A model generated the notes under the pieces. That model was not told the DNA's origin. It saw only the letters and a list, made by a program, of their open reading frames with translations, and ran no database searches. From positions 62,001 through 126,000 of the forward strand of contig NZ_VCNC01000005.1 of assembly GCF_006210265.1 (NCBI RefSeq): 64,000 nucleotides of DNA, written 5' to 3'. Both the position numbers and the translations under genes were made by a program. How positions within the stretch are numbered: the first letter of the stretch is position 1; every line of letters starts with the position of its first letter. Shown piece by piece: positions 8,841 to 44,780 of this stretch. The stretch comes from Desulfovibrio sp. UCD-KL4C. GTDB taxonomy: Bacteria > Desulfobacterota > Desulfovibrionia > Desulfovibrionales > Desulfovibrionaceae.

Positions 8841-9785
8841 CTAGATTTTAGAACTCAATCTGCTCAATTCTTCTTCTATAATGTTTTGCAAATTTTCACT
8901 GAACATCGCCTTGCCATATCCTGTAATACGAGAATTTACATGTGTTTTTAAAGGTCCGGTTGACATGTTCTTTGAATCAAAGGACCAGTTTTTAATAATA
9001 CCTTGGCATTTATCAACGTCAGAATGAGGATCTATAAATTGAACAATTTTTGAAAAATATTTAACAGGATCAGATTTAATATCTTCATATTGAAGAGCTA
9101 ATACTCTATGATTATTTGATTTGTATTTTTCAAATTCTATTTTCATGCACTTCCAATCGTGAATTAATTTTTTAAGAGTTTTAGCTGTGATAATATCACT
9201 TGTCTCATTTGTCTGGTAAGAATCGATCATTAAAAAATCGTTTATTGTAAATCTGCACATTTCTGCATCAGCTCTGTTTGTCTTAGTCGACCTATAGAAA
9301 TGCATTATATAAGAAGCTAGGAAATCGTATAAATTACGATGTAAAAAAATAATTTTTGCTTCAGGAAAAACTCTCTGAATGCGCGGAAAAACTTCAGTAG
9401 AAAGAGCTGTCGTCTTGTCTCCAATAGCCGTAGTGCCTGCTTTCTGTCGTAAAAAACAGTTAAGCACAATTTCACGGGTTGCTTGATCTGCTATTTTCTG
9501 GGTAACGCTGGTTTTATTGTCTTCAGAAACAAAATTACGTTTTTCAATTGTTTTTATTTCGACCAGATCATCAAGCCAATTTTGCTTTCGATCGCATATA
9601 TAATCACCCCATTGATAAATTGATTTATAGATTGAATCATAAAGTGATGGTGTGTTTTTTAAACCAGACGCAAAGAAAAGGCCCTCTCCGATACAGCAAA
9701 TGCCATTAACGTCATTAAGCATATTCTTAATCCACGTAGATCCCGTCTTCGGAAGTCCTGTTATAAAAAAGAATTGTTTTATCAT
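8841..9785 (-). CDS. PAPS-dependent sulfotransferase family protein
   Basis: A protein of 314 residues. FFITGLPKTGSTWIKNML at residues 6-23 is the 5'-phosphosulfate binding loop, and IIFLHRNLYDFLASYIMHFY near 145-165 is the 3'-phosphate motif (Arg and Ser present). It most resembles bacterial sulfotransferase-family proteins associated with glycans or small molecules. No signal peptide. ATG at 9785 follows AGGGACG. It is a single-gene unit ending at a terminator, in a segment bracketed by att-like repeats, with lower GC than the core genes. PAPS supply is plausible in a sulfate reducer. The acceptor is unknown. Confidence 0.8.
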   Translation of the reverse strand: MIKQFFFITGLPKTGSTWIKNMLNDVNGICCIGEGLFFASGLKNTPSLYDSIYKSIYQWGDYICDRKQNWLDDLVEIKTIEKRNFVSEDNKTSVTQKIADQATREIVLNCFLRQKAGTTAIGDKTTALSTEVFPRIQRVFPEAKIIFLHRNLYDFLASYIMHFYRSTKTNRADAEMCRFTINDFLMIDSYQTNETSDIITAKTLKKLIHDWKCMKIEFEKYKSNNHRVLALQYEDIKSDPVKYFSKIVQFIDPHSDVDKCQGIIKNWSFDSKNMSTGPLKTHVNSRITGYGKAMFSENLQNIIEEELSRLSSKI

Positions 9786-21159: not shown

Positions 21160-22316
21160 TTACTTGTTATTCGCTTCCAACTCGCGCAGGATATGTTCAC
21201 TTTGCTTGGATAGTCCTATTCTCTCATAGAAGGAAGAAAGTTCTCTGAAAATATGTTCTCTTGATTGGTTATCCCTCGTGACTGAAAGAGCCTCTGCAAA
21301 AGCATTAAAAGTTAAGCTATAGTCTCCTTGCAAGGCATATATCTTTGCAAGAGCTATATAAAGTAACGGGTTAGGATCATATTTTAATGCTCGTTTGATT
21401 TTTTTAATTATTTTTGATTCTTTTTTTGTATTAAATTTGTTGCGATTTCTTTCAGCAATTCTTGCACGTTGACACTAATTTTGTCTAAAATTTCATCCGA
21501 AATAAACTTCGCTCCCATTTTGGAATAGAAATCAGTTTTTTTAGAGAACCTCTGAATACTTTTTTCTAATTCACCTTGTTTGTGAGATTGTTCATAGAAT
21601 TCTTCAAGCTTATAGCAAAGCTTATTTTGCATAGGAGTTGCCAAACCACGCGAAATTTTATTTTCAAAGTCCTGTTGTGATTTGTAATAGTAGTGATTTA
21701 TCTGAATTTTTTCTGAAGTATGGTATGACCGCGGCCCAATAATCGGAATGCAGTGCTCGTTTACACAGAATGTATTATTTTTATAAATAAAATGGTGTGG
21801 AGATATTACATCTTCAGTCATCGCAGGCTGGATGATACTTTTGATAAGTGAGTGTTCTTTAAGACATGTGGTATAGGCTTTATCTGGGCCTAAAGATGGT
21901 CTTTTAATATTTCCGTTTGATCCAAATACCTTCCAACTAATTCCAACTGCAGGATATGTTTCGTACTCTTCAAGAAACTCGGAAATATCAGTTTTACTCT
22001 TTATGTTGATATATTCATCAGCATCTATAAAAGCGACCCAGCGTGCATCCTCACCAAATTTTTTAAGGAATGCTGCATATGCACTGAGCTGTGGGAATTC
22101 ATTTAGTGTTATATCTTGAACTTCAATAATTCCACACCGCATATAATCAGCAAGAGTCGTCTTAATGCTAATCTTACTATTGTTGTCAAAAATATAAATT
22201 TTATCAAATCCAATTGCAAAATGATAGTTTACCCAATGTATAAGATCATAGCCTTCATCTTTTACTATGCAACATATTACTGCATAAAACTTATTCGTAT
22301 TTGTATTGTAGTTCAT
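21160..22316 (-). CDS. GT92-like glycosyltransferase with TPR tail in the -1 frame
   Basis: The first frame (22316-21408, 302 residues) is a GT-A glycosyltransferase of the GT92/Glyco_tranf_2_4 type: VICCIVKDEGYDLIHWVNYH at the start, IYIFDNNS, and WVAFIDADEYI with the DxD motif near residue 105. It ends IQKKNQK, stop. At 21426-21420 the codons CAA AAA AAG contain the heptamer A-AAA-AAG; moving back one base opens 86 further residues (ESKIIKKIKRALKYD, DPNPLLYIALAKIYALQ, a TPR-like repeat) to a stop at 21160-21162. Either programmed slippage or a one-base deletion in the A tract explains this. No good ribosome binding site precedes 22316. Confidence 0.65.
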
Positions 22317-22736: not shown

Positions 22737-22852
22737 TCATTTTACTATCAATCATGTTCTATATTCTTTTTACAGGCTCAAAATTTAAAAGCATGCGAAT
22801 TCTTACCCAAAATAAACGATAGGCGAATATTTTCTTTTGAGCATCGTATGTG

Positions 22853-22887
22853 AAAAGGGTTAACTCAGTTTTTGAGTTAACCCTTTT
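22853..22887. terminator. Hairpin terminator of the GGTTAACTCA family
   Basis: AAAAGGGTTAACTCA pairs exactly with TGAGTTAACCCTTTT around GTTTT. It lies 39 bases before the truncated gene copy at 22926, the same relation as 28512-28550 to the intact gene at 28590. Confidence 0.75.
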
Positions 22888-22925
22888 GTGTGGTTAGCGG
22901 AGACCTGTTTTCTTGTCAGGCTGTT

Positions 22926-23060: not shown

Positions 23061-23130
23061 TGGTATTTATTTTTGGAATATATTTTGCATAGTGTTCGCA
23101 GAGTGTCATTTGATTAACATGGAGGATATT

Positions 23131-24996
23131 ATGCAGGTCATTATACTCGCTGCGGGGAGGGGGCAAAGATTAAGTCCCATTACAGATACGGTTCCAAAAC
23201 CTTTGGTTGAGGTAAACGGTACGCCGCTCATTATTAATGCACTTGATATTTTTTCTAAGCATCCAGTCGAAAGGTTCATTATTGTTGAAGGTTATGAATC
23301 TAAGCAGCTTCGCGCACAGCTCGGTGACAATTATAATGGAATAGAAATTATATATGTTAGTAATGATGACTGGGATAAGACCAATAATATCCATTCTCTA
23401 TGGTTAACCCGTGACTTATGGGATAGGGATTCCGTTCTGATGGAATGCGATATCTTTTTTGATGCTGGGCTTGTTGATTTGCTTCTTACAGCGCCATTTG
23501 AAAATTCTGTTTTGGTAGACCGTTTTCAGCCTTACATGGATGGTACTATTGTAGAACTTTCTGCTGATAAAAAAAATATTACCCGGCTTATTCCGGGTAA
23601 AGATCAAGATGCAAATTTTAATATTACTGATAAATATAAAACAGTTAATATATATACTTTTACCCATGAATTTCTCCAGAATATTTTTAAGCCTACCATT
23701 GATCTTTATGTGAAAATTAATGGGCAAAATGAGTATTATGAATTGGTTCTGGGTGTGATAGTTTTTATGGGCAGCAAAGATCTGGTTGCGAAAGAGTGCC
23801 ATCCTCACCGCTGGTTTGAAATAGATGATTTTACCGACCTGCAACGGGCTGAGGCTTATTTGAGTGATGATTATTCTTTGTTGCAAAAAATCCGTAAAAA
23901 GTTTGGTGGATACTGGCGTTATGATTTCACTGATTTTGAGTATCTCTATAATCCATACTTTCCAAATCAAAATTTATACAATGAACTTCGCTTGAATTTG
24001 ACGGATCTTTTAGGCAATTATCCTTCCGGGCAGATGGAAATTAATCACAGTCTTGCAAATTGGGTACGGATTGATGAATCCATGCTTGCAGTGGCTAACG
24101 GTGGGTCAGAATTAATAGAAAATTTGCGTCGTAGTTTTAAAAAAGTGACTTTATTGTTGCCGTCATTTGACGAGTATGCACGAAACCTTGCTCCCGAACA
24201 GATCCACTACATTAAGCCCAATTCGCAGACATTAGCCCATACACCAGAAAGCATTGTTAAGGCAACCAAAGCAAGCGGGTCAAATGCATTGGTAATTATT
24301 AATCCTAGCAATCCAGCGGGAACGAAGTTCACGCCTTCAGAACTGCATTATATTTTTGGTGAACTTCGCTCTTTGGATATGATCATTTTAGATGAATCTT
24401 TTGCTGATTTTATAAGCACCGGAAGAGACGTCTCCTTTTTGGATGAACTGAAAAAATATCCTAACATGGTTATTCTAAGGAGTCTTAGTAAAGACTTAGG
24501 CGTTCCTGGAATTAGACTTGGGTATGTTGCTACTGCTGATACAAAAAGAATTGCTGAAATGCGTTCTGCTTTGCCCATATGGCATATAAATTCTTTAGCT
24601 CAGTATTTTATTGATATTCTGCCAAAGTATCGTAATGATTATGCTGCTGCTCGTTCGATGGTTATTGCTGCAAGAGACGAAATGTATGAACTCTTATGCG
24701 ATATTCCTTCCATAAAAATTATTCCATCTTTTGCTAACTATTTTTGCTGTGAATTGCCGGACGGTGTTTCTTCTGACGAAATTCAGGAACGTTTATTTAT
24801 GGACTACAAGTTCTTGGTAAAAGATCTTGGCAAAAAGCAGGGACTACCCAAAAATAAATTTATAAGAATCGCCGTAAAAAGGCCTGAAGAAAATAAAATG
24901 ATTGTCAACGCTTTGGCAGAAACTTTAGCAGGTGTAACAACTCATATTAATAGTCAGAACTTAGAACTTTTACAAAATATTCAAAATTATGTTTAG
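23131..24996 (+). CDS. Cytidylyltransferase-aminotransferase fusion (LicC/PntC-like)
   Basis: ATG at 23131 follows GGAGGATATT; an upstream in-frame start at 23092 has no such site. 621 residues. Residues 1-~245 are a nucleotidyltransferase of the LicC/PntC group: VIILAAGRGQRLSPITD, VPKPLVEVNGTPLI, and MECDIFF with the metal-binding aspartate. Residues ~270-610 are a fold-type I class I/II aminotransferase: INPSNPAGTKF near 390, LDESFADF, and LSKDLGVPGIRLGY near 450 with the PLP lysine. Such fusions are known in 2-aminoethylphosphonate metabolism (PntC with a transaminase), where they make CMP-activated head groups; phosphocholine or amino-alcohol substrates are alternatives. No PEP mutase gene is in the window. 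First gene of the three-gene cassette. Confidence 0.8.
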   Translation: MQVIILAAGRGQRLSPITDTVPKPLVEVNGTPLIINALDIFSKHPVERFIIVEGYESKQLRAQLGDNYNGIEIIYVSNDDWDKTNNIHSLWLTRDLWDRDSVLMECDIFFDAGLVDLLLTAPFENSVLVDRFQPYMDGTIVELSADKKNITRLIPGKDQDANFNITDKYKTVNIYTFTHEFLQNIFKPTIDLYVKINGQNEYYELVLGVIVFMGSKDLVAKECHPHRWFEIDDFTDLQRAEAYLSDDYSLLQKIRKKFGGYWRYDFTDFEYLYNPYFPNQNLYNELRLNLTDLLGNYPSGQMEINHSLANWVRIDESMLAVANGGSELIENLRRSFKKVTLLLPSFDEYARNLAPEQIHYIKPNSQTLAHTPESIVKATKASGSNALVIINPSNPAGTKFTPSELHYIFGELRSLDMIILDESFADFISTGRDVSFLDELKKYPNMVILRSLSKDLGVPGIRLGYVATADTKRIAEMRSALPIWHINSLAQYFIDILPKYRNDYAAARSMVIAARDEMYELLCDIPSIKIIPSFANYFCCELPDGVSSDEIQERLFMDYKFLVKDLGKKQGLPKNKFIRIAVKRPEENKMIVNALAETLAGVTTHINSQNLELLQNIQNYV

Positions 24997-25077
24997 TTGC
25001 ATCGCATTTATGAGTAGGCGGCAGTTCGTTTTTTTAGTCATATTCAAACTACGTAATTTATCTAATTAGGATTAGTA

Positions 25078-25788
25078 ATGAATGCAAAAAATAAATGGCA
25101 AGAAGTCTGGCTCCGTAAGGGTGGAGAAAAGAGTTCATATGATCTTGAAGGACTAATGCAGGCGGATGGGTTTGATACCAACACCGGTGCTATGACAGTG
25201 GTAGATTGGTTAGATACATCTGCTGATATTAATAAACATTTACAGATTTCACATGGGAATAATTTGCTAGAAATCGGGTGCGGAGCTGGCGCAATGCTCT
25301 GGACTATGCGTGATTGCGGAGTAAATTTGTACGGTGTGGATTATTCTGAAACTTTACTTAAAAAAGCCCGCAAAGCTATTCCTGAACTTTCCGCTGAGAC
25401 ATGTGAAGCAGCCAGCTTGAACTTTCCTGATAATATGTTTGAAGCGGTCTTCTCACATGGTGTTTTCTTTTATTTTGAAGATTACGACTATGCAGAACGA
25501 GCAATGAACGAAATTTTGCGAGTTCTAACCGACCATGGAAAAATTTTCATTCTCGATGTCCCCGATCTTGATAAACGCGACGCCTGCGAAACTTTTCGTC
25601 GGGATGTTGTTTACGCTGGTGAAGATTATCCAACTGCTGAAAACAGTCCTTATAGGCATCTTTATTATCCGAAGTCATGGTTTGAAAAGTTTGGAGAACG
25701 CAATAACTTGGCGACTACTTTTTTTGATCAGAATCTGCCAAGCTATCCCATGTCTCCGTACAGATTTAATGTCTTACTCGAATATTAG
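25078..25788 (+). CDS. Class I SAM-dependent methyltransferase
   Basis: A protein of 236 residues. Motif I NLLEIGCGAGAM near 61-72, the acidic end of strand 2 GVDYSETLL near 87, NFPDNMFEAVFSHGVFF as motif IV region, then ILRVLTDHGKIFILDVPD. A Methyltransf_11/25-type enzyme acting on a small molecule or sugar. It is 80 bases after the fusion gene and 17 bases before the sulfatase-like gene in one + strand unit, so N- or O-methylation of the activated head group or of the glycan is a natural guess. The substrate is unknown. Confidence 0.75.
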   Translation: MNAKNKWQEVWLRKGGEKSSYDLEGLMQADGFDTNTGAMTVVDWLDTSADINKHLQISHGNNLLEIGCGAGAMLWTMRDCGVNLYGVDYSETLLKKARKAIPELSAETCEAASLNFPDNMFEAVFSHGVFFYFEDYDYAERAMNEILRVLTDHGKIFILDVPDLDKRDACETFRRDVVYAGEDYPTAENSPYRHLYYPKSWFEKFGERNNLATTFFDQNLPSYPMSPYRFNVLLEY

Positions 25789-25805
25789 ATAAATTATTTC
25801 CAATT

Positions 25806-28475
25806 ATGAGCTATACTAAAAAAAATATAATCTGGATCGTCATTGATACGTTACGGTCAGATATGCTGGCATCGTGTAAATCAGAAGTAGCTAAGCCTAA
25901 CGAGATAGATAATATCCTTGAACAGGGCGTTTTGTTTACTGATGTTATGACTACAGGTGGAGGTACCAGAATCTCTGCTCCATCGTACTTCACCTCTTTG
26001 CGCCCGGGATTGACGGGGATGGCTCACATGGCTGTAGATACTTTGCGTAATCTTAATGATGACGCTATTTCTGTTACTGAGCATTTTAAACATCATGGGT
26101 ATAGAACCCTTCGGTGGGATGACAGCAGTCTTGATTCTTGTCAGCCTAAATCAGGGTTTGAAATTTTTGAGTCAGGATATCCTACATTAGATCATACCCC
26201 TGACCGGGATTATGATAATTCTCGGCGTGATGCTTTCGTTAAACGCTTGCGTAAAGATAATCAGCCTTTTTTTGCTTATCTCCACCTCGACTTCATCCAT
26301 GATTTTGGCGGATATTCACGCAACAATTGGTCAACGGAACAGTATCTTGATATTGTAGCTCAGCAAGCCAAAGATTTTCAGAAACTGTGGGATAAACTTA
26401 ATCCCGGTTTTGATGATATTGTAGTTATTTCTTCCGATCATGGCTGTATTCTTGATCGGGACTATATTGAATATGACAAAAAAAAACCATGGGATTTTTC
26501 AAATGCGAGAACTCAAGTTTTTGCTTCTTTTATTGCAGAAGGTTTGGTGCCATGTAAGCGGCATAATTTAATCCGTAGCATAGATATAGCCCCGACTTTG
26601 CTTGATATGGCTCTTGGGGAAGAAATGCATGCTCAGGGGGTATGCCTTACTTCTGTATTGCATGGCGGGCCAGAACTTGATTTGATTGGTATTGCCGAAC
26701 GTAATGTGACGTTGGAGAAAAAGAGCATTGCAGATTACACTTGTCTCAGGAAAAGTAATTGGACGTATTTTATTAACAGTCAAAAGCCATTTATGCTTTT
26801 CAATAGTGAAGATGGTGATTTAAACGTTGATCATCTTGGCAAGGGGTTTGAGGTTGAGAAGGAACTTCACCAATATTATGAAGATTTTGTCGTTAACGGT
26901 TGGCAAACTCCTACCGATTTGTACAAGCAACACGGGTTATCTATTCCAGTTGTACGCGGTGAGCCTGATATAAGCATATTACTTCCGGTCTGTAATTGGT
27001 CTGATGATGTGCGCTTGTGTTTGGACTCATTGCTTGATCAAATTTTGTTTACTGAATTAATTTTACTGGATGCTGACTCTAGCGGTGAAGTTGCTGAAAA
27101 ACTTGCAGAACAATATTCAGATAGAATGTATCTTCGTCATATTCAGGTTCAGGTCAATGAGAAATCTTTATGTGAAATGTTGAATATTGGGCTTGAAAAA
27201 GCGAAAGGAGTTTATTGTGTAACCGCCACTCCTTTATGCCAATACACTGAAAATTTTTGCTATTCACTTCATAAGGAATTTTTAAAAGATTCTAACGTAG
27301 TGCTTGCCTACGCAAATTCAAAACGTTTAATCAGTGATAATCGAGAAATGGGTTATTTGGGAACTGATGAATGCTTTGATGAGATTCTTTTTTCTAGAAT
27401 GGGATCTGGATTTGATCATAATTCAAGCTCTAAAATTTTATCTTTACCTTATTTTAATGAAATTGGAGCGTGTGCTATGTTTAGGACTGAAACTATGCGC
27501 AACTCTCGTGGGTTTGTAGAGAATCTTGGGAAAACATGGCATAAACTTATTAAGATAGGTACAATTAAGCATGTCCGCAAAGGACTGACAATCTCAAAAG
27601 ATTCGTCAATTTTGAGGCCGGTTATGCCGTGGCGAGAAGAACAGTCTAGGTTTAAGATAAGTGTAATAATTCCTGTGCTCGAATCCAATGTATTGCATAA
27701 GTTACCGCAAGTTATGTCGATGCTATCAACTCAGTGCGTAGATAGTATGGAAGTTCTTTTGCTATATTCGGCAGAAAACACCAGTTTTTTAAAAGCAGTA
27801 GCTAAAGATTTCTCAAAGCTAAAAATCAAAATAGTAAAGCATTCAGGACTGCTTTATAAGCTTTTAAACACAGGCCTTTATGTCTCCCGTGGAGAATTTC
27901 TTTTCTGGCTGGACCCAGCTGATAAACTTTTGCCAAAGTGTATAGGGAGCATGATTGATCATATGGATCAAGATCAGGACGTAACGGCTCTCCGTTGTGG
28001 GGTTATCCTCACTGAACAGGGCAAGCCAAAGCAGGTCGTAGTTCCGCACAGGCATACTAGGGAAATGATACAAGAAGTATGTGATTTGCGCGGTTTACTT
28101 TATAAACGTAGACTTCATAATGATATAGGTGTTTTTACTCCTTCAACAGGAAATGAATTTGGATGGGATCTTTGTATTAAATTATCTTTAGTTAGTTCTT
28201 TTCAAATTATTGAAGAACCTATGATTATAGCGACAAGAATGCATCAATATTTTATTCAGTCTGCTATTGAATCATATCGTAAAGTCATGCGTAATATGAT
28301 AAATGCAATGGGTGGGATGGTCGATTTTGTAAGGCTTTATGAAGATGATTTTAGAAGGCACTCCGCGGGTAAAGCCCGCTATATACTTGAAGAAGAAATG
28401 CTACTGATTTTAAAACTTATTAATAAGTTAGGAATATGTGCTGGGGGGCTCATTAGAGTACCTAAGATTTATTAA
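25806..28475 (+). CDS. Alkaline-phosphatase-superfamily sulfatase fused to two GT2-like domains
   Basis: A protein of 889 residues. Residues 1-~350 are a sulfatase/phosphotransferase fold: IIWIVIDTLRSDML with the first metal ligand, TRISAPSYFTSLRPGLTG with serine 57 at the nucleophile place (no CxPxR, so not a standard Cys-type sulfatase), and VISSDHGCILD near 208 with the second metal site. A GT-A-like domain starts near 385 (DISILLPVCNWSDDVRLCL) and another near 616 (FKISVIIPVLES, then FLFWLDPADKLLP). The second and first lack a clear DxD. No signal peptide or membrane helix is seen, which is unusual for this superfamily in glycan decoration. It could transfer a phospho-head group to a sugar or remove one. 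Confidence 0.75.
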   Translation: MSYTKKNIIWIVIDTLRSDMLASCKSEVAKPNEIDNILEQGVLFTDVMTTGGGTRISAPSYFTSLRPGLTGMAHMAVDTLRNLNDDAISVTEHFKHHGYRTLRWDDSSLDSCQPKSGFEIFESGYPTLDHTPDRDYDNSRRDAFVKRLRKDNQPFFAYLHLDFIHDFGGYSRNNWSTEQYLDIVAQQAKDFQKLWDKLNPGFDDIVVISSDHGCILDRDYIEYDKKKPWDFSNARTQVFASFIAEGLVPCKRHNLIRSIDIAPTLLDMALGEEMHAQGVCLTSVLHGGPELDLIGIAERNVTLEKKSIADYTCLRKSNWTYFINSQKPFMLFNSEDGDLNVDHLGKGFEVEKELHQYYEDFVVNGWQTPTDLYKQHGLSIPVVRGEPDISILLPVCNWSDDVRLCLDSLLDQILFTELILLDADSSGEVAEKLAEQYSDRMYLRHIQVQVNEKSLCEMLNIGLEKAKGVYCVTATPLCQYTENFCYSLHKEFLKDSNVVLAYANSKRLISDNREMGYLGTDECFDEILFSRMGSGFDHNSSSKILSLPYFNEIGACAMFRTETMRNSRGFVENLGKTWHKLIKIGTIKHVRKGLTISKDSSILRPVMPWREEQSRFKISVIIPVLESNVLHKLPQVMSMLSTQCVDSMEVLLLYSAENTSFLKAVAKDFSKLKIKIVKHSGLLYKLLNTGLYVSRGEFLFWLDPADKLLPKCIGSMIDHMDQDQDVTALRCGVILTEQGKPKQVVVPHRHTREMIQEVCDLRGLLYKRRLHNDIGVFTPSTGNEFGWDLCIKLSLVSSFQIIEEPMIIATRMHQYFIQSAIESYRKVMRNMINAMGGMVDFVRLYEDDFRRHSAGKARYILEEEMLLILKLINKLGICAGGLIRVPKIY

Positions 28476-28511
28476 ATTAGTTTCCTCGGTTGCATAGCTT
28501 GTCATATGAAA

Positions 28512-28550
28512 AGATGGTTAACCCATAAACTGAGTTAACCATCTTTTTTT
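28512..28550. terminator. Terminator between cassette and binding-protein gene
   Basis: AGATGGTTAACCCA pairs with TGAGTTAACCATCT (one mismatch pair near the loop) followed by TTTTTT. It can serve the + strand cassette and, read the other way, the - strand binding-protein gene. Confidence 0.75.
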
Positions 28551-28589
28551 AAAAAGAAGTGGGAACCGTTGCATTTGTTGCCAGCCTGA

Positions 28590-43415: not shown

Positions 43416-44780
43416 ATGAGTACATTACAGAAAGATAAAAAAAGTTTGAGATCATTACTTGCTTTAGCTTCACCGCTTCGTTCCGGCGATGTCTTGGCAG
43501 GAGTGGCAGCAAGAACAGAAGAAGAGCGAGTTTTAGCCCAGATAGAACTCTCTGAAGTTCCTTTAACAAGGTTTTTAAACGAGCCTGTTATTGCTTATGA
43601 AAAGGACGAAGTTACCCGTCTTATTATCGATGATCATGATAAAGAGGCCTTTGCCCCTGTAAGCAGTTTCACTGTTGGAGAATTCCGTGACTGGCTTCTC
43701 ACAGACGTAGCTTCAACGGATGTGCTTACAAAACTTGCCATGGGTATCACGCCTGAAATGGCTGCCGCTGTTTCAAAACTTATGCGTATGCAGGATTTGA
43801 TTCTTGTAGCATCTAAATGTCAGGTTATTACAAAATTTCGCAATACACTCGGGTTACCAGGGAGATTTTCTGTGCGGTTGCAACCCAATCATCCCACCGA
43901 TGATTTAAAAGGAATTGCCGCTTCAACTTTAGACGGACTGTGTTACGGCTCAGGTGACGCTGTTATCGGCATTAATCCAGCAACAGATAATGTTGAAAAT
44001 ATTACCCGTTTGATGTGGATGCTTGATGATATAGTTGAAAAACATTCCATCCCTACCCAAACATGTGTTCTGACCCACGTTACAACAACAATGGAAGCGA
44101 TTAAGGCCGGAGCTCCGGTTGATCTTTGCTTTCAGTCAATAGCAGGAACTGAAGGGACCAACGCCAGTTTCGGTGTTAGTTTGAGCTTGCTTCAGGAAGC
44201 ATACGAAGCAACGCTTTCACTTGGACGTGGAACAGTTGGAAACAACGTTATGTATTTTGAAACAGGGCAGGGAAGTGCTTTGTCTGCTAATGCTCACCAC
44301 GGTGTTGACCAGCAGACACTTGAAGCCAGAGCTTACGCAGTTGCCCGCAAATTTAAACCTTTACTTGTAAACACCGTAGTCGGTTTTATCGGTCCTGAGT
44401 ATCTCTATAATGGAAAGCAGATCCAGCGTGCCGGTTTGGAAGATCTCTTTTGTGGTAAACTGCTCGGATTACCGATGGGAGTCGATGTTTGTTACACCAA
44501 TCATGCGGAAGCTGATCAAGATGATATGGATGTGCTTTTGACTTTGCTCGGTAATGCTAAGTGTAACTTTATCATGGGTATTCCCGGCGCGGATGATATT
44601 ATGCTCAATTATCAATCCACTTCATTTCACGATGCATGTTATCTGCGCAAATTGCTAAATTTAAGACCTGCTCCTGAATTTGAGGCATGGCTAGAAAAAG
44701 TAGGTATTCATGACGAGAAAGGAAAATTATTGCCCGCATCCAGTTCTAATTCTTTGATGGCCATAACACAGGGATTATAA
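43416..44780 (+). CDS. eutB: Ethanolamine ammonia-lyase large subunit
   Basis: A protein of 454 residues, full length for EutB. With EutC it forms the cobalamin-dependent lyase that splits ethanolamine to acetaldehyde and ammonia. Recognisable EutB stretches: KLMRMQDLILVASKCQVITK, GRFSVRLQPNHPTDDLKG, SIAGTEGTNASFGV, YFETGQGSALSANAHHG, MGVDVCYTNHAEADQDDMD. ATG 43416 after ACGGAAG. The stop overlaps the eutC ATG. No microcompartment shell, EutA reactivase or adenosyltransferase gene is in the window. Confidence 0.95.
   Translation: MSTLQKDKKSLRSLLALASPLRSGDVLAGVAARTEEERVLAQIELSEVPLTRFLNEPVIAYEKDEVTRLIIDDHDKEAFAPVSSFTVGEFRDWLLTDVASTDVLTKLAMGITPEMAAAVSKLMRMQDLILVASKCQVITKFRNTLGLPGRFSVRLQPNHPTDDLKGIAASTLDGLCYGSGDAVIGINPATDNVENITRLMWMLDDIVEKHSIPTQTCVLTHVTTTMEAIKAGAPVDLCFQSIAGTEGTNASFGVSLSLLQEAYEATLSLGRGTVGNNVMYFETGQGSALSANAHHGVDQQTLEARAYAVARKFKPLLVNTVVGFIGPEYLYNGKQIQRAGLEDLFCGKLLGLPMGVDVCYTNHAEADQDDMDVLLTLLGNAKCNFIMGIPGADDIMLNYQSTSFHDACYLRKLLNLRPAPEFEAWLEKVGIHDEKGKLLPASSSNSLMAITQGL

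Follow-up and report, generated by a model that had tools for sequence, protein, structure and literature searches.

In the Lic-1 phosphocholine pathway (LicA-LicB-LicC-LicD), a phospho-amino-alcohol derived from imported choline is activated with cytidine triphosphate (CTP) and transferred to a glycan, the transferase being LicD. In the PntC-AEPT protein of T. denticola (PDB 6pd1), a nucleotidyltransferase fused to a pyridoxal phosphate (PLP) enzyme serves cell-surface phosphorus head groups (PMC6697681), and another such fusion carries a class V PLP domain (PMC13215547). Phospho-head groups are also transferred by EptA, MCR-1 and PptA, members of the alkaline phosphatase (AP) superfamily (PptA: PMC10434233). 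We analyzed a 64,000-nucleotide stretch of the genome of Desulfovibrio sp. UCD-KL4C (the window; G000:C5:62001-126000; genome 3.93 Mb, 99.9% complete), which holds a unit of three genes encoding a nucleotidyltransferase-PLP fusion (gene 1), an S-adenosylmethionine (SAM) methyltransferase (gene 2) and an AP domain fused to two domains like glycosyltransferase family 2 (GT2; gene 3, whose protein we call SGG). We propose that this unit synthesizes a methylated head group of the phosphoethanolamine type and attaches it, a joint account to which we assign a probability of roughly 0.53 because its two main parts support each other. Taken singly, we regard it as likely that SGG is the head-group transferase and, with slightly less assurance, as probable that the PLP domain decarboxylates serine phosphate.

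A first-pass annotation of the window had already delimited the unit and read it as a head-group decoration system. Both points held, the three open reading frames (ORFs) lying on the same strand and the trio being kept together in 7 of the 12 genomes that carry SGG, although the annotation as a whole was borne out only in part. Its features are as follows.

23131..24996, + strand: gene 1, bifunctional nucleotidyltransferase-PLP enzyme, 621 aa counted from ATG (the mechanical ORF begins with GTG at 23092)
23131..23907, + strand: LicC/PntC-like nucleotidyltransferase domain, predicted CTP:phosphoethanolamine type (PDB profile ranking)
23908..24993, + strand: CobD-like PLP domain, predicted serine-phosphate decarboxylase (PDB profile ranking)
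24490-24492, + strand: Schiff-base lysine K454 in SLSK, invariant in 9/9
25078..25788, + strand: gene 2, SAM methyltransferase, 236 aa (Pfam Methyltransf_11)
25806..28475, + strand: gene 3 (SGG), AP domain and two GT2-like domains, 889 aa
25806..26795, + strand: AP domain of SGG (aa 1-330; fold model), with D14, T54, H165, D211 and H212 invariant in 12/12
25965..25967, + strand: Thr54 codon, predicted nucleophile, aligned with the Cys of C-x-P-x-R sulfatases and invariant in 12/12
26961..27635, + strand: first GT2-like domain (aa 386-610), with an invariant YTE and no DxD
27636..28472, + strand: second GT2-like domain (aa 611-889), with D-x-x-D in the 9 genus members only

In the proposed mechanism, the PLP domain would decarboxylate L-serine phosphate to ethanolamine phosphate, which the fused LicC/PntC-like domain would couple to cytidine monophosphate (CMP) to give CDP-ethanolamine, and the methyltransferase would N-methylate the amine before or after activation. 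Thr54 of the AP domain would then attack the CMP-activated head group, releasing CMP, and the head group would be passed to a hydroxyl on a glycan sugar, the glycan being bound or built by the two GT-like domains. In relatives that lack genes 1 and 2, CMP-hydroxyethylphosphonate would supply SGG instead. The predicted route thus shares with Lic-1 the CTP activation of a phospho-amino-alcohol and its transfer to a glycan, but the head group would apparently come from serine phosphate and be methylated in situ rather than imported as choline, and the transferase would be an AP-GT-GT protein rather than LicD.

For gene 1, Pfam recognised NTP_transferase followed by Aminotran_1_2. The first domain has the NTP-transferase fold, and its closest solved relatives are LicC (1jyk, 64.0 bits) and PntC (6pd1, 50.2 bits, aligned at query residues 2-167 only), as the annotation had proposed; it had named a grouping with sugar-1-phosphate enzymes as the outcome that would tell against it, and these and other enzymes scored at most 46 bits. 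The fusion to a PLP domain was also predicted correctly, but not its type: Aminotran_5, the class V family of aminoethylphosphonate (AEP) transaminases, was absent from the domain by Pfam, PF00155 being found instead, so that gene 1 differs from PntC-AEPT in having a class I/II, CobD-like partner. The top PDB match of the PLP profile was 6oux (193 bits, 58 ahead of the second match), which we take to be SMUL_1544, and further matches included CobD (1lc5, 131 bits) and the threonine-phosphate decarboxylase 3fkd (101 bits), followed by 3euc (HisC, 95 bits), more HisC entries and E. coli HisC (72 bits). SMUL_1544 has been proposed to make ethanolamine phosphate (PMC4585668), and Cj1436 decarboxylates serine phosphate to ethanolamine phosphate for the C. 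jejuni capsule (PMC12409886). A Sulfurospirillum relative, 27.6% identical, is annotated as a norcobamide biosynthesis serine-O-phosphate decarboxylase. From this ranking of nearest relatives, on which the decarboxylase label rests, the PLP domain looks more like the CobD-like phospho-amino-acid decarboxylases, from which it differs in its fusion to a nucleotidyltransferase. We rejected the reading of it as the CobD of cobamide synthesis, as the genome has a separate CobD over the cut-off.

The strongest competing explanation is that the PLP domain is a transaminase whose product is a phosphorylated amino alcohol, for instance serinol phosphate; SGG would then transfer the head group of CDP-serinol or a similar donor. 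Transaminases occur in its fold family, Cj1437 forms serinol phosphate for the C. jejuni capsule (PMC12409886), the second PDB match (3ftb, 135 bits) was deposited as a histidinol-phosphate aminotransferase, and several PLP-only plasmid relatives are annotated as histidinol-phosphate transaminases. The CobD equivalog model TIGR01140 gave 154.5 bits against a cut-off of 290.55, which the domain therefore fails, and the NCBIfam HisC model gave 137.6 bits, likewise sub-cut-off. The lead of 6oux and the distance between CobD and E. coli HisC nevertheless speak for decarboxylation, and we consider the transaminase unlikely, if less so than the other rivals below.

Gene 2 is predicted to N-methylate the ethanolamine head group; as the annotation held, it is a SAM methyltransferase. 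Two phospho(methyl)ethanolamine N-methyltransferases ranked third and fourth among the eight PDB matches of its profile, over the generic SAM region only. It was found, at 54-100% identity, in all 7 genomes in which gene 1 adjoins SGG and, at comparable identity, in none of the 5 SGG genomes with phosphoenolpyruvate (PEP) mutase; the only other match at 1e-10 in a search of 14 genomes was a partial one (36%) in G268 (genomes and contigs carry our G and L numbers).

SGG proved to be the 889-residue fusion that the annotation had described, with a Pfam Sulfatase match (62 bits) and two Glycos_transf_2 stretches, and without a Pfam match to LicD (PF04991). As the model of the whole protein was poor in its AP part (pLDDT 69 overall), the AP domain was modelled alone (aa 1-385, pLDDT 90.8); it has the fold and metal-site residues of the AP superfamily. 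The annotation had suggested comparing this domain with phosphoethanolamine transferases, and the matches obtained were mostly sulfatases, with choline sulfatase, phosphonate monoester hydrolases and PbgA. The annotation was right that the motif is not of the Cys type, but its nucleophile, the serine of SAPSYF (S57), was rejected, because Thr54, three residues ahead of that serine, aligns with the sulfatase Cys. No C/S-x-P-x-R formylglycine motif is present, the window's SGG reading T-R-I-S-A without the motif arginine, and the formylglycine position is Thr in 12/12. EptA and MCR have a Thr nucleophile, as is predicted for SGG, and transferases of their type are periplasmic and use lipid donors. 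SGG, for which phospho-head-group transfer is likewise predicted, differs from EptA, MCR-1 and PptA in its fusion to GT domains, in its tie through gene content to CMP-activated donors, and in the absence of any N-terminal hydrophobic or membrane segment in a 19-residue hydropathy scan. The highest 19-residue mean was 1.8 at aa 865-883, near the C terminus, a stretch through which SGG may make peripheral membrane contact. Both GT-like domains have a GT2-like fold and match K4CP best, but depart from K4CP and other tandem GT2 polymerases in that the first lacks DxD in 12/12 and the second has D-x-x-D in 9/12, the three members outside the genus lacking it.

We next considered distribution in a class sample of 348 genomes, 17 of them from the genus, using thresholds of E 1e-20 for SGG, 1e-12 for the AP domain alone, 1e-60 for gene 1 and 1e-10 for gene 2. 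SGG was found in 12/348 genomes and the AP domain alone in the same 12. The architecture is thus unusual, as the annotation had judged, and rare in the class rather than widespread in unrelated contexts, which it had named as a ground for doubt. Identity to the window's SGG was 52-80% within the genus and 28-30% in two genomes outside it, and in a third the AP part was 40% and the GT part 24% identical; this conservation across the genus and beyond argues that the trio is not a chance assembly. A further search of genome contigs returned two records and one distant sulfatase, the two being metagenome-assembled genomes of Desulfovibrio sp. that appear to be G263 and G266; they represent these genomes in the alignments and were not counted additionally. 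Plasmid records held no SGG relative at 1e-10 and viral contigs no AP domain relative, despite 160 pattern matches. In a phylum sample of 395 genomes, 113 had matches at 1e-10, and apart from the window's own, the matches listed covered only the GT or the sulfatase stretch. In one genome, G323 (L028 8244-11020), the AP and GT-GT parts are separate, overlapping, out-of-frame ORFs, which may be a true split or an assembly error. At L015, L020 and L022-L025, SGG lies near an ORF pair of the same size, with or without genes 1 and 2, as if the gene 1-gene 2 pair had come and gone at one chromosomal site; the pair is CvpA-like plus MazG in L015, the other loci being matched by size only.

The two donor pathways are distributed reciprocally around SGG. 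Gene 1 occurs in 9/348 class genomes, seven times at 55% identity or more and then always adjoining SGG, and otherwise in G123 (37%) and G009 (35%), neither of which has SGG. The five SGG genomes without gene 1 (G264, G267, G268, G270 and G298) all have PEP mutase over the curated cut-off, and the seven with gene 1 have no PEP mutase match at E 0.001. Within the genus, SGG is present in 9/17 genomes, five with gene 1 and four with PEP mutase, and 0/8 of those without SGG have gene 1 or PEP mutase over the cut-off, G265 having a sub-cut-off relative only. PEP mutase passes the cut-off in 11/348 class genomes, and 36 more have sub-cut-off relatives only. Fisher tests, in which relatedness is ignored, gave 8e-6 for PEP mutase with SGG over the 348 genomes, 7e-12 for close gene 1 with SGG and 0.0013 for mutual exclusion of gene 1 and PEP mutase within the SGG genomes.

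In G298 and G268, the two scanned for it, a PF01467 cytidylyltransferase forms the N-terminal part of the PEP mutase, and in 5/5 genomes a thiamine pyrophosphate enzyme and an iron-containing alcohol dehydrogenase lie 3' of it (by Pfam in G298, by similarity to G298 in the others). In G298 and G270, again the two scanned, PEP mutase and phosphonopyruvate decarboxylase scored over the cut-offs of their NCBIfam models, and the dehydrogenase stayed below that of its own. By analogy with Fom1, these genomes likely use a hydroxyethylphosphonate route with CMP activation (PMC6697681). Relatives that have SGG without genes 1 and 2 would thus follow the Fom1-type pathway, whose PEP mutase is missing from the window's genome. 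Phosphonate chemistry therefore belongs to the family, through the sister genomes that pair SGG with it, and not to this genome. Three genomes, G011, G038 and G030, have PEP mutase and lack SGG; in each, PEP mutase adjoins a large protein whose C-terminal domain, with the motif GMGWSGSGA, is common to all three (L090 6614-8005, L093 5814-8426 and L095 4843-7770). It looks sulfotransferase-like, without such a Pfam match in the two scanned, and is perhaps yet another head-group transferase.

LicD was found in none of the 12 SGG genomes; among the 20 genomes searched it occurred only in G055 and G135, both with PEP mutase and without SGG. Relatives of gene 1 elsewhere comprised 17 plasmid records at 1e-40 (7 contexts inspected) and 3 virus-collection contigs (35-36% identical). 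On a Gloeothece plasmid, gene 1 (34%) is followed by a methyltransferase that shares 31% identity with gene 2 along its length, and then by LicD; on contig L139 it is accompanied by a methyltransferase with 24% identity and by a LicD of borderline score (22.7 against 22.6 bits); and on L140 LicD is the third gene after it. A CDP-glycerol-phosphotransferase-like gene lies upstream of gene 1 on L138, and CDP-alcohol phosphatidyltransferases lie beside it in Erwinia (Pfam) and Mesorhizobium (annotation). Gene 1 thus often, though not always, partners CDP-alcohol-using enzymes, whose place SGG would occupy in the Desulfovibrio group. Because the donor pathways are reciprocal, LicD is absent from all 12 genomes and the Gloeothece LicD stands where SGG would be, the most likely role of SGG is to transfer a CMP-activated phosphate or phosphonate head group to a glycan. 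It would then function like LicD with a different fold, a likeness of context only.

Alternatively, transfer could fall to another enzyme and the AP domain could be a hydrolase: as a phosphodiesterase or an editing enzyme, it would take off or recycle the head group or split CDP-alcohols. The AP superfamily is mostly hydrolytic, and the closest folds of the domain are those of hydrolases. This would, however, leave all 12 genomes without a visible LicD-type transferase, when on the Gloeothece plasmid LicD follows genes 1 and 2, and the GT-like fusion and the want of an N-terminal membrane segment better suit cytosolic glycan synthesis; we hold it to be improbable, more so than the transaminase. 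A genuine sulfatase acting on sulfated glycans beside unrelated neighbours, as the Pfam match and most structural neighbours would have it, was rejected, because the Thr at the formylglycine position cannot become formylglycine, the motif arginine is missing and the distribution of SGG tracks phosphorus-head-group genes, so that very little chance is left to it. Least credible is an AEP unit of the PntC-AEPT type, for which the PntC-like nucleotidyltransferase speaks: the annotation, having seen no PEP mutase in the window, had allowed for an aminophosphonate with a source elsewhere and advised checking the genome, but that search, run at E 0.001, found none in the whole genome and, with a PLP domain not of class V, largely refutes it.

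In the AP domain of SGG three candidate head-group specificity residues stand out, amine-type referring to the seven SGGs with gene 1 and phosphonate-type to the five with PEP mutase.

26118..26120, + strand: D105 codon; D in 7/7 amine-type, A/S/A/A/N in 5/5 phosphonate-type
26232..26234, + strand: A143 codon; A in 7/7 amine-type, N/N/D/D/D in 5/5 phosphonate-type
26289..26291, + strand: D162 codon; D in 7/7 amine-type, Y/Y/Y/Y/L in 5/5 phosphonate-type

Invariant columns in the amine-type proteins number 115, at three of which all four PEP-mutase SGGs of the genus differ; G298, on an independent branch, differs at 13/115, including the same three (P 0.0012). None of the residues changed in both donor switches lies in the GT part. 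The tree needs two switches, forced by its starred branches, with L028 on a long branch and support of only 86/90 for the PEP-mutase clade of the genus, and the amine/phosphonate split is the best of 126 comparable splits. D162 is three residues ahead of H165, and D105 adjoins the position aligned with a lysine of sulfatases 9koq and 6hr5. Choline sulfatase clamps the ammonium group with Trp129 and His145 (PMC9063841), positions that appear to lie elsewhere in the sequence. A change from an amine to a hydroxyl head group with loss of two acids would fit an AP domain that itself reads the head group.

Several points weigh against the proposed account. The chief weakness is that we know of no AP-superfamily transferase with a CMP-activated donor, and EptA, LtaS and OpgB are membrane-bound and use lipid donors. 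The nucleotidyltransferase assignment is strained by 4jd0, which at 50.1 bits nearly ties with PntC, and by the top NCBIfam matches, which are sugar-1-phosphate types, all sub-cut-off. No head-group transferase was recognised in 6/12 gene 1 contexts outside the SGG genomes: in Fusobacterium (three neighbours scanned), in Priestia, Pseudonocardia and NGR234 (by the annotation of their non-hypothetical genes), and in G123 and G009, neither of which has LicD anywhere in its genome. Near gene 1, G009 has a GT2 together with a methyltransferase that resembles part of gene 2 at only 24%, and G123 an octopine-dehydrogenase-like gene. PEP mutase genes lie directly downstream of SGG in G298, but far from it in the other 4 of 5 genomes. 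The Fisher tests are not independent of phylogeny, and the residue correlation is drawn from a small sample with only two independent switches; of the 792 ways to divide the proteins 7/5, 5 attain the observed count. The acceptor glycan is a guess, because the GT domains are degenerate, and all the chemistry of the unit is what we infer from sequence.

Among the matches listed from the open-licence PMC literature, the excerpts describe neither the AP-GT-GT architecture nor an AP-fold transferase with CMP-activated donors. In its widest form, our proposal is that SGG would be the first cytosolic AP-superfamily transferase of CMP-activated phosphate or phosphonate head groups onto glycans, a second solution to the job of LicD with donor choice by D105, A143 and D162, alongside a pathway that needs no choline and leads from serine phosphate to head groups of methylated phosphoethanolamine, perhaps phosphocholine; we advance this whole tentatively, as somewhat short of an even chance. 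Phosphonyl tailoring after C-P bond formation has been called enigmatic in the paper that supplied the CMP-activation step (PMC6697681), and 'arylsulfatase A' is among the genes near phosphonate genes in a set taken as a sign of phosphonate ester synthesis (PMC9381506). SGG offers a possible reason for sulfatase-fold proteins in phosphonate clusters and a testable candidate for the poorly known attaching step. With donor pathways swapped around one transferase, a single family could be compared with an amine and with a hydroxyl head group.

The unit is flanked by two hairpins that have the core GGTTAAC in common.

22848..22892, + strand: hairpin preceding the unit (z -7.2)
28505..28555, + strand: terminator-like hairpin and T run, 3' of SGG (z -7.0)

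Upstream, on the - strand, lie a sulfotransferase-family gene and a GT92-like gene (8841-9785 and 21408-22316). About 15 kb from the unit, at 43416-44780, is a gene for EutB, the large subunit of ethanolamine ammonia lyase, which has a possible connection with the predicted ethanolamine head group.

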